Below, piece after piece: positions 3,198 to 57,026 of a stretch of DNA of 60,631 bases. Source of the DNA: Minisyncoccota bacterium (GTDB taxonomy: Bacteria > Patescibacteriota > JACMRA01); the NCBI GenBank assembly GCA_014376695.1, contig JACMRA010000012.1, positions 1-60,631 on the forward strand, given 5' to 3'. The position numbers and the translations under genes were made by a program. A model generated the notes under the pieces. The model was not told the origin of the DNA, searched no databases, and saw only the letters and a program-made list of their open reading frames with translations. The first letter of the stretch is position 1, and each line of letters opens with the position of its first letter.

Positions 3198-3271
3198 ACG
3201 GGTATAGTTTAGTGGTAGAACATGGGTCTCCAAAACCTAGAGTGTGGGTTCGATTCCTACTACCCGTGCCA
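3198..3271 (+). tRNA. tRNA-Trp (CCA anticodon), CCA end encoded
   Basis: A full cloverleaf can be folded. The acceptor ACGGGTA pairs with TACCCGT, the D arm contains GGT, the anticodon stem TGGGT/ACCTA holds loop CTCCAAA with anticodon CCA, and the T stem GTGGG/CCTAC holds loop TTCGATT. Discriminator G is followed by an encoded CCA. Its 5' base follows directly on the T-run of the upstream terminator, so it may depend on readthrough from the RRM gene. A reading frame that begins inside the tRNA is not a real start. Confidence 0.95.
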
Positions 3272-52119: not shown

Positions 52120-52998
52120 TTATACGATTTTTTTGTAAAAGTGGCAGTATGGAGATTGGCCGTTTTTTGTATAGTAATCTTGATGATAGTCTTCGGCTGG
52201 CCAGAACTTAGTTTCGGTCAGTAATTTAGTCACTGGCTTGTAGCCTTTTTGCTCTAATTCGGTTAGAATTTTTTGAATTATTGTTTTTTGTTCTGTCGTC
52301 TTGTACTGGATTAGGCTCAAGTATTGACTCCCAACGTCGTTCCCTTGACCGTCTACTTGTTCAAAATCATGGATATTAAAAAAATAGCGAATTAACTCTT
52401 CAAAACTAACTTTACTACTATCGTAATCAATTTTTAGGACTTCGATGTGACCAGTTTCGCCCGAGCAGACTTGCCGGTATGTAGGATTATCGGTATGGCC
52501 GCCGCTGTATCCCACACTTGTTGATACCACGCCATTTAATTTTTTGAACCAATATTCAACTCCCCAGAAGCACCCGCAGCCGACAACTAAACTCTCAATT
52601 TTTTGGATGGGATGGGCTTGGTCTTTGTTGATATATTTGATTGAGGCTGAATTAACACAGTGACGAGTATTTTGAACTGTTAATTGCTCCCCTATAAATA
52701 CATGCCCGAGATGAACACTGCAGTTACTACAAACTATCTCTATACGGCGACCATCAATATCAGGAACTTGTATAACGCTATTTGGGTAGCATTTATCGAA
52801 GGCGGGCCACCCACATCCAGCATCAAATTTAGCGCTAGAGCTATACAAAAGCGCACCGCAGTTGCGACAGGCGTAATCGCCAGCTTGATAGAAATCATCG
52901 TACTCGCCGCTATAGGCCGGCTCGGTCGATTGGTTGAACATTACTTCTTTTTGAAAATTTGTCAGGTTTGGGTTGATAATTGACTTAGACATAGACAT
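52120..52998 (-). CDS. msrBA: Methionine sulfoxide reductase, MsrB-MsrA fusion
   Basis: A 292-residue two-domain repair enzyme that reduces both epimers of methionine sulfoxide. The N-terminal MsrB domain (about 10-125) has zinc-binding 'CRNCG' and 'CSNCSVHLGHVF' and catalytic Cys in 'TRHCVNSASI'. The C-terminal MsrA domain (about 135-285) has 'VVGCGCFWGVEYWF' with the catalytic Cys, and 'FWPAEDYHQDYY'. The order B then A occurs in several bacteria. It protects against oxidative damage, possibly at the surface, though no signal peptide is seen. TTGACG and TATAAA lie upstream with unusual spacing. Confidence 0.95.
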   Translation of the reverse strand: MSMSKSIINPNLTNFQKEVMFNQSTEPAYSGEYDDFYQAGDYACRNCGALLYSSSAKFDAGCGWPAFDKCYPNSVIQVPDIDGRRIEIVCSNCSVHLGHVFIGEQLTVQNTRHCVNSASIKYINKDQAHPIQKIESLVVGCGCFWGVEYWFKKLNGVVSTSVGYSGGHTDNPTYRQVCSGETGHIEVLKIDYDSSKVSFEELIRYFFNIHDFEQVDGQGNDVGSQYLSLIQYKTTEQKTIIQKILTELEQKGYKPVTKLLTETKFWPAEDYHQDYYTKNGQSPYCHFYKKIV

Positions 52999-54611: not shown

Positions 54612-54793
54612 AATAATTGATGATTTTTTAGTAAAAATTTGGTATTGAGATATAACTTAAATCAAAAAATAAAAGCTATCCTATATTTACTTTTAATGTG
54701 TGCAATTTAACTAAGTTAAACATAAAGTAAAAATTTTTTTTAGGCAAGTTTTTGAGCTTTATCAGCTTAACTTCAAATTTATGAATAATATAA

Positions 54794-54822
54794 TTGACAT
54801 TACCTTGAATATCTGCATAAAT
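54794..54822 (+). promoter_or_regulatory. Promoter of ribBA
   Basis: TTGACA (54794-54799) and ATAAAT (54817-54822) are 17 bases apart. The -10 ends 9 bases before the ATG at 54832, and the boxes lie within an in-frame upstream extension, so the start at 54781 is not used. Confidence 0.65.
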
Positions 54823-54831
54823 CTTATTGCT

Positions 54832-56094
54832 ATGACTAAAATTTTACATTCTATCGAAGAGGCTATTCTTGACCTCCAACAAGGTAAATTCGTAATCGTT
54901 GTTGACGACGAAGACCGAGAAAATGAGGGTGACTTAATTTGCGCGGCCTCTAACATCACCCCGGCAATGGTAAATTTTGCGATAACTAATGCTAAGGGAC
55001 TTATGTGCGTATCGATTGATCAAGCTAAGGCTGATTTTTTGAGACTTCCCGCGATGACAGCTGTTAACACCGATATAAAAGGTACGGCTTTTACTATTTC
55101 AATTGATTATAAACATCGAGGCTGCACTACCGGAATAAGTGCATACGACCGGGCTGTAACTCTTAATTCGCTCCTTGACCCAGAAACTACCGCGGATTCT
55201 TATACTCGCCCTGGCCATGTATTTCCACTGGTTGCCAAAGATGGCGGAGTCCTGACTCGAGATGGACACACAGAGGCCTCTTTGGACTTGGCCAAACTTG
55301 CGGGGCTAGGTGCTGCTGCTGTCCTTATCGAAATAATCAAGCCAAATGGTGAGATGGCCCGACTCAGGGATCTTTTGGCGATGTCTAAGCAATGGAATAT
55401 GAAAATTATCTCAATTGCAGACTTAATAGAATATCGTAAATCCAACCCAAAGTTCCCTGTTCAAAATTTTGAGGTTACTTACGCTAATCCTACGACAAGC
55501 TTTGAAAAAACCGAGTCAGTACAGCTTCCAACCAAGAACGGTGAGTTTGAAATGATAGTCTACAAAGATCTCCACACCGCGGATGAATATACCGTAATTT
55601 ACAAAAATTCAGCCCCATTAGAAGCGGGCAAAGATCTCAAAGTTCGATTACATTCAAGTTGTGTTACTGGAGATATCTTCGGTTCGCACAAATGTGATTG
55701 CGGTGAGCAGCTAGACATTGCACTTCAGCACATCGAAAAAGAGGGGAACGGAATGATTATTTACCTACCTCAAGAAGGTCGGGGTATCGGGTTATTTAAT
55801 AAGATGAAAGCTTATAAGCTCCAACAAGAAGGCTTTGATACATTAGAAGCTAATAATAAGCTTGGATTTGAGGGAGATTTGCGAGAGTATGATTTTGCCG
55901 CCACGATTCTCAAAGATATGGGCATTACTCGAATTCAATTAATGACTAATAACCTCGATAAAGTCGAACAATTAACCAAGCTTGGTATTATAGTAAGCGC
56001 CCGAACGCCAATCCTCGTCCCAGCAAACTCCCACAACGAAAGCTATATGGCCACCAAAGAGGCTAAGATGAACCACACTTTTAAGACCCTTTAG
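54832..56094 (+). CDS. ribBA: RibBA: DHBP synthase and GTP cyclohydrolase II
   Basis: A 420-residue bifunctional enzyme for the first steps of riboflavin synthesis. The N-terminal RibB domain (about 1-200) has 'VVDDEDRENEGDLICAA' and 'YTRPGHVFPLVAKDGGVL' with 'RDGHTEASLDL'. The C-terminal RibA domain has the zinc-binding cysteines in 'HSSCVTGDIFGSHKCDCGEQ', the active-site block 'YLPQEGRGIGLFNKM', and 'TNNLDKVEQL'. I chose the ATG at 54832 because the promoter covers the region before it. No other rib gene and no FMN riboswitch structure was seen here. The pheT fragment overlaps its 3' end on the other strand. Confidence 0.96.
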   Translation: MTKILHSIEEAILDLQQGKFVIVVDDEDRENEGDLICAASNITPAMVNFAITNAKGLMCVSIDQAKADFLRLPAMTAVNTDIKGTAFTISIDYKHRGCTTGISAYDRAVTLNSLLDPETTADSYTRPGHVFPLVAKDGGVLTRDGHTEASLDLAKLAGLGAAAVLIEIIKPNGEMARLRDLLAMSKQWNMKIISIADLIEYRKSNPKFPVQNFEVTYANPTTSFEKTESVQLPTKNGEFEMIVYKDLHTADEYTVIYKNSAPLEAGKDLKVRLHSSCVTGDIFGSHKCDCGEQLDIALQHIEKEGNGMIIYLPQEGRGIGLFNKMKAYKLQQEGFDTLEANNKLGFEGDLREYDFAATILKDMGITRIQLMTNNLDKVEQLTKLGIIVSARTPILVPANSHNESYMATKEAKMNHTFKTL

Positions 56095-57026
56095 TTAGTT
56101 GTTTCAACTAATTTTTGGTGGTCAAACATATGGCTTGGCTGCCCTATATCTACCAATAAATAATTAGACAAGTCGCCCATATTGCCAATTAGATTGCGTC
56201 CGCTTAGGAACATTCTTTGCTGATAAATATGGGGTAAATTGTAGCCTTGATCGGGCGTTTTTGGTGTCAATTGGTACAGGTCAAAACTGTTGACATAATT
56301 AGATTGGTCAGTAATTTCAATTCGGGTAGTTGACTTGGTCATTGCCTCGATTAACTTGGCGTATTCGGAGTTGACGTAATCTATATTTAGTAGGTTTTTG
56401 GCTCTTTCGGTCAAAAGATTATAATCTTCCAAAGCGATACTCAATTCCAGAGCCATGCCGAGATGATTGGCGATTTGGCCGTATTTGTCAGGCAGGACTT
56501 TGATATCAATAATTGTTTGAGGCTCGAAGTATTCTGGTAGGATTTGGCAAATTGATTGTCCGAGAACATTGTCTATCTTTAGGTTTTTGGATTGCAAAAT
56601 ATCGTTTAGTTCCCAGAGCCCACTACTAGATTCAGTTTCCAACATTAATTCGCTCATTCCACATCCCATTCCATTCGATTCAATACCACGGAGCTTGCGA
56701 GGAGCGATCGTCATAAACGGAAGCAGGCAGCCATTGAGAGCCACGGGGATAACCAAACCATCTCGGCTATTAGCCGCCGCCGAGACAATAGTAACATTAG
56801 GAAGAATTCCACCAAAATCTACCTCAAAAATATTTAGCTTATCTGCCTCGGGGTGTTTGGCAAGCTTAGTGATCTGGCCAATGACTACGCGACTATTAAA
56901 CCAGTCGGACTTGACTTCTATTTCGTCCACCTCGGCAATTTTTTGGGTGATAATTGATTCTAGTTGGGTATTGGTGTAGGCAGACAAATCGATATATTCA
57001 CGAAGCCAGGATCGTACAAAAAGCAT
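56091..57026 (-). CDS. pheT: Phenylalanyl-tRNA synthetase beta, N-terminal part only
   Basis: A 311-residue protein equal to the first part of PheRS beta (normally about 780-800 residues). It has the tRNA-binding EMAP/OB domain at about 43-150 ('VVIGQITKLAKHPEADKLNI') and the start of the B3/B4 editing domain ('LSGRNLIGNMGDLSNYLLVD', then 'DIGQPSHMFDHQKL'), where it ends. The rest of B3/B4, the B5 domain, the catalytic-like domain and the FDX-ACB domain are missing. The stop overlaps the 3' end of ribBA on the other strand. No decayed remainder is seen. The C-terminal part may be encoded elsewhere. Without it the heterotetramer with PheS should not form normally. Confidence 0.85.
   Translation of the reverse strand: MLFVRSWLREYIDLSAYTNTQLESIITQKIAEVDEIEVKSDWFNSRVVIGQITKLAKHPEADKLNIFEVDFGGILPNVTIVSAAANSRDGLVIPVALNGCLLPFMTIAPRKLRGIESNGMGCGMSELMLETESSSGLWELNDILQSKNLKIDNVLGQSICQILPEYFEPQTIIDIKVLPDKYGQIANHLGMALELSIALEDYNLLTERAKNLLNIDYVNSEYAKLIEAMTKSTTRIEITDQSNYVNSFDLYQLTPKTPDQGYNLPHIYQQRMFLSGRNLIGNMGDLSNYLLVDIGQPSHMFDHQKLVETTN

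Follow-up and report, generated by a model that had tools for sequence, protein, structure and literature searches.

Probable fission of pheT inside the editing domain in a genome of the Minisyncoccota

Results

The N-terminal part of pheT and its neighbor

The window, the whole stretch of 60,631 nucleotides that was analysed, contains a gene for the N-terminal part of the PheRS beta subunit (pheT-N), which converges on ribBA. The features concerned are the following:

56091..57026, minus strand: pheT-N, 311 residues, comprising the B1/B2 tRNA-binding part and the first B3/B4 part
56616..56888, minus strand: tRNA_bind (OB-fold, B2), residues 47-137 of pheT-N (PF01588, 1.4e-13)
56106..56234, minus strand: first part of the B3/B4 editing domain, residues 265-307 of pheT-N (PF03483, profile positions 20-62 of 174)
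54781..56094, plus strand: ribBA, encoding DHBP synthase and GTP cyclohydrolase II, convergent to pheT-N
56091..56094, no strand: putative fission junction on the window contig, contig 6 of the assembly, where the stop codons of pheT-N and ribBA overlap by 4 bp

The initial annotation had described a pheT gene that ends at residue 311 inside the B3/B4 domain and overlaps the 3' end of ribBA, and the ORF (ATG start, TAA stop, 311 aa), the Pfam matches and the NCBIfam model TIGR00472 (pheT_bact) agree with this description. PheT-N covers positions 1-277 of the 798 positions of TIGR00472 (2.5e-44; 1-278 in the search of the whole assembly) and is 45-50% identical to four relatives, and this match to PheRS beta is far beyond chance. 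It had also been stated that the minus strand holds no remainder of the gene, which was borne out: past the pheT-N stop codon that strand is the antisense of ribBA and nothing follows, and a longer or read-through pheT-N ORF was thereby ruled out. No Rfam match was found near the junction, and the promoter and terminator scans gave results at chance level only.

Among the 48 ORFs in the window that reach 150 aa or more, the stop codon is TAA in 27, TAG in 17 and TGA in 4, and TGA is thus rare. Some relatives bear the labels Gracilibacteria or SR1, groups known to read UGA as glycine; the genes of the window are read through in table 11. In addition, an ORF at 52120-52998 on the minus strand resembles, by eye and from its translation only, a fusion of the MsrB and MsrA methionine sulfoxide reductases.

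The remainder of pheT and the pheS gene

The window's own assembly, a 78% complete MAG of 955,781 bases in 16 contigs, was searched with TIGR00472, and exactly two matches were found, pheT-N and a second gene, pheT-C:

Contig 15, 65334-66812, plus strand: pheT-C, a 492-aa ORF with its own ATG

The match of pheT-C (G000:C15:65346-66791) corresponds to positions 280-783 of the model. Its ATG lies 9 bp downstream of tig and is preceded by an AGGA-like motif; glyS follows 22 bp beyond the end of the gene. The pheS gene is present as a single copy on contig 2, adjoining neither pheT piece, flanked upstream by a YbaB-like ORF and downstream by an ORF predicted to encode a membrane metal-dependent hydrolase (both named by eye), and the PheRS genes are therefore spread over three loci on three contigs. 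Thus, the approximately 480 residues that had been suggested to be sought as a separate gene, together with pheS, are both encoded in this genome, while a complete pheT, which would have contradicted the initial annotation, was not found elsewhere in this 78% complete assembly.

Position of the cut

When the two pieces were compared with the intact pheT of a relative (G001, 825 aa, adjoining pheS), they were found to abut exactly, with no residue missing or duplicated, and the same abutment without loss or overlap was obtained with the pheT of another relative, G003, which is frameshifted and otherwise complete. PheT-N ends in FDHQKLVETTN (...GQPSHMFDHQKLVETTN) and pheT-C starts with MTQWTIKSL, and the intact protein of G001 reads ...FSQVKTILDEGSQWKILNL (also given as ...GQPTHLFSQVKTILDEGSQWKILNL) across the junction. 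The cut falls in what we take to be the turn between the FDxxKL segment (helix) and the next B3/B4 strand in bacterial PheRS; AlphaFold models, with a pLDDT of 40 for the N part and 45 for the intact relative, were too poor for testing the fit or the secondary structure.

The distribution of domains is that of one protein divided in two: tRNA_bind and the start of B3_4 are found on the N piece, and the rest of B3_4 and tRNA_synthFbeta (CLM) on the C piece. Jointly, the pieces cover positions 1-783 of the 798 in TIGR00472. Their scores of 151 and 139 bits lie below the curated cut-off of 402.65, as does that of intact G001, and since the latter itself scores only 283 bits, the family is divergent. 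The Pfam B5 and FDX-ACB domains are below significance on pheT-C; in intact G001, B5 is undetected and FDX-ACB is weak (23 bits). The alignment of pheT-C to G001 extends through the FDX-ACB region, and pheT-C ends some 14 residues earlier. PheT-C is somewhat more diverged than the N piece (31-34% identity to the relatives, against 46-50% for the N piece; G001 and G003 share 52% and 40% over the two parts), and this divergence, together with the shortening by about 14 residues relative to the relatives, leaves room for an altered function. No frameshift or internal stop was found across the 803 codons of both pieces, and residues invariant in the family are retained on both sides of the cut. 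The two ORFs are thus complementary, lie at separate loci and have lost nothing between them, as is expected of a gene split in two.

Division of the editing residues

It has been reported that the editing site of the Thermus thermophilus PheRS beta subunit comprises Thr249, Asn250, His261, Gly315, Glu323 and Glu334 (PMC3275996). By alignment to the beta chains of 3pco and 6p8t, through His265 of Escherichia coli, Ser287, Asn288 and His299 of pheT-N were placed at the positions of Thr249, Asn250 and His261, with serine standing in for threonine at the first of them, while Gly44 and Glu63 of pheT-C correspond to Gly315 and Glu334. Glu323 is conserved neither in pheT-C nor in G001. Since the editing residues are divided between the N and C chains, a working pocket would need both of them.

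Relatives and survey of the phylum

The class sample consisted of six genomes, the window genome and five family relatives (G001-G005). The pheT gene is intact in G001, frameshifted in G003 and interrupted by contig ends in G004 and G005, and G002 gave no match. In G003 the frame changes by one base at an A7 run (L009, about 3230-3245) and is restored just downstream, and sequencing error, slippage and a real mutation are indistinguishable as its cause. The contigs of G005 (L004 start) and G004 (L005 end) terminate in pheT at residues 263 and 254, about ten codons apart, and no match to the C-terminal part was found elsewhere in either genome. The closeness of these two contig ends is probably a coincidence, given how often contigs of this phylum break off within pheT. 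A split common to the relatives was therefore rejected, as G003 has a one-base problem and G004 and G005 run off contig ends.

Among the matches listed for 287 genomes of the phylum, pheT is in most cases a single gene, either full-length or truncated at the N-terminus. Two re-searches covered about 108 weak-scoring genomes, whose candidate loci were then read, and no other dispersed pheT split was found among these CPR genomes and loci. Seven candidates (G171, G164, G196, G257, G172, G143 and G024) were discarded as splits because a contig end coincides with the end of the piece or lies no more than about 10 bases from it, and two more (G065 and G132) because their interruptions are adjacent and resemble a local deletion or frameshift. 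The split of the window genome is so far found in one MAG, with no second genome carrying the same split in the sample.

The survey also brought up other forms of PheRS. In 23 CPR genomes from about ten sampled families (G261, G200, G209, G158, G071, G020, G150, G219, G097, G245, G055, G125, G038, G194, G270, G139, G076, G213, G131, G236, G029, G169 and G089), no PheT core was found, and only FDX-ACB and small tRNA-binding matches were obtained. These genomes contain one strong PheRS catalytic domain, in an ORF of about 380 aa with a C-terminal FDX-ACB, which often adjoins a stand-alone tRNA-binding ORF (for instance, G261, L103:1768-2892 and L103:2900-3310, both on the minus strand). The one example tested, G261, scored 193 bits to the human mitochondrial monomeric PheRS versus 103 bits to bacterial PheS; the literature searched contained no report of bacteria whose only PheRS is a mitochondrial-type monomeric enzyme. 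Furthermore, G184, G248 and G282 (L104, L105) contain PheT-like frames of about 400-440 aa that match TIGR00472 at 155-200, 400-630 and 670-797, and appear to be without the tRNA-binding domain and the greater part of the B3/B4 editing domain.

Discussion

Few synthetase subunits are as large and as conserved as PheRS beta. The results described above suggest that pheT has quite probably undergone fission in this CPR lineage, giving two complementary genes and a PheRS made of three polypeptides. The first alternative to be considered is that a chimeric join in one of the contigs, or in both, created the junction and that the real pheT is contiguous. The source is a MAG, and the contig ends inside pheT in G004 and G005, together with the frameshift in G003, indicate that pheT is often broken in these assemblies. 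Furthermore, pilM is located near tig in G003 but near pheT-N in the window genome, and because of this difference synteny does not settle whether the split is genuine. However, a misjoin requires a repeat common to the two junctions, and the longest words common to their 600-bp windows, 11 bp direct and 8 bp inverted, are at the level of random pairs (mean 9.6, maximum 12), so that nothing evident would have led the assembler to exchange them. Each junction sequence is single-copy in the genome, both junctions lie within contigs, the nearest ends being 4.5 and 7.2 kb away, and an in-frame stop codon and an in-frame start codon follow immediately at the ends of the two pieces. The composition of each piece resembles its surroundings. 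In addition, tig and RNase J are near neighbors on the same strand in G001 as they are here, a proximity that supports the arrangement of contig 15, and ribA in G003 is located about 2.2 kb from pheT. A chimeric contig, which had been named as the finding that would overturn the truncation, is thus, on the evidence of the sequence, an unlikely source of the split, and an assembly artefact is rather improbable.

At the pheT-C locus, a 10-bp direct repeat, ATGGACAATT, is found at L001:1458-1467, where tig ends, and at 1494-1503, where pheT-C begins, with both copies in the same reading frame. The chance of such a repeat is about 0.5% per given pair of 60-bp windows, and it is possible that it represents the footprint of a rearrangement. 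The tig gene itself ends earlier in the window genome than in G001 and G004.

A second alternative is that both pieces are remnants of a pseudogene and that another gene provides the PheRS activity. In a 78% complete assembly another pheT could be missing, but exactly complementary frames would not be expected from decay, the 803 codons are free of frameshifts and internal stops, the family-invariant residues are intact to either side of the cut, pheS is single, and the other PF01409 match in the assembly is HisRS-like, and this explanation is accordingly very unlikely. The proposal that PheRS could manage with only the N-terminal fragment of beta, lacking B5 and FDX-ACB, recalls the unusual short PheT or monomeric PheRS of some CPR genomes, but is hardly credible here, as the C-terminal 492 residues are encoded on contig 15 of the same genome.

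Under gene fission, the N-terminal 311 residues would have remained as one gene, convergent with ribBA, while the C-terminal 492 residues, furnished with a start codon of their own, would have become a second gene, located between tig and glyS, with pheS at a third locus. PheT-N and PheT-C would then most likely co-fold, or associate after translation, and combine with PheS into a tetramer of the usual arrangement, (PheS:N:C)2. Very probably, non-covalent association of the two beta fragments and PheS restores a PheRS of normal shape, and we infer that both fragments are expressed and that the enzyme is active in charging and editing. Since the cut is placed at the turn presumed to link the FDxxKL helix to the next strand of B3/B4, two chains would have to come together to form the editing pocket, with Ser/Asn/His contributed by the N chain and Gly/Glu by the C chain. 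It is thus reasonably likely, though less so than the fission itself, that this bacterial PheRS consists of PheS, PheT-N and PheT-C and that its pocket for editing Tyr-tRNA(Phe) exists only where two chains meet.

A natural cut in the editing domain shows the extent to which an essential multidomain enzyme tolerates fragmentation. It also offers a ready-made split site and permits a direct test of whether editing survives the division of the pocket between chains. Furthermore, fission can make single-copy markers such as pheT look duplicated or truncated in CPR genomes.

Compared with the ordinary (alpha-beta)2 PheRS, such as that of G001, the pieces placed end to end have the same domains and residues, whereas the ordinary enzyme has one beta gene that adjoins pheS. 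In the literature searched, split pheT was found only in two reports. A natural two-locus pheT, cut before B5 and present throughout the order, has been described in the Altiarchaeales, where function was inferred (Bird et al. 2016, PMC4975002). Both cases concern a natural division of PheRS beta between two genes that are not neighbors, with the conserved residues kept; however, that split is archaeal, lies between domains and extends to a whole order, whereas the present one is bacterial, lies inside B3/B4 and occurs in one genome. In Mycoplasma pneumoniae, PheT was split by engineering after residue 207, in the B1/B3 linker, and the strain was viable (PMC12494982), a finding that counts in favor of the fission proposed here. 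That protein is likewise a bacterial PheT in two fragments, which in our case are known from their genes, but its split is man-made and at one locus, whereas the present one is natural, lies about 100 residues further along the chain and has its two genes at dispersed loci. As far as they are cited in PMC4975002, the Aquifex LeuRS and the AlaRS of Nanoarchaeota are other split aminoacyl-tRNA synthetases, in which an essential chain is likewise made from two genes, with different enzymes and cut sites. The splitting of pheT itself is therefore already known, and what is new here is a bacterial pheT split inside the editing domain.
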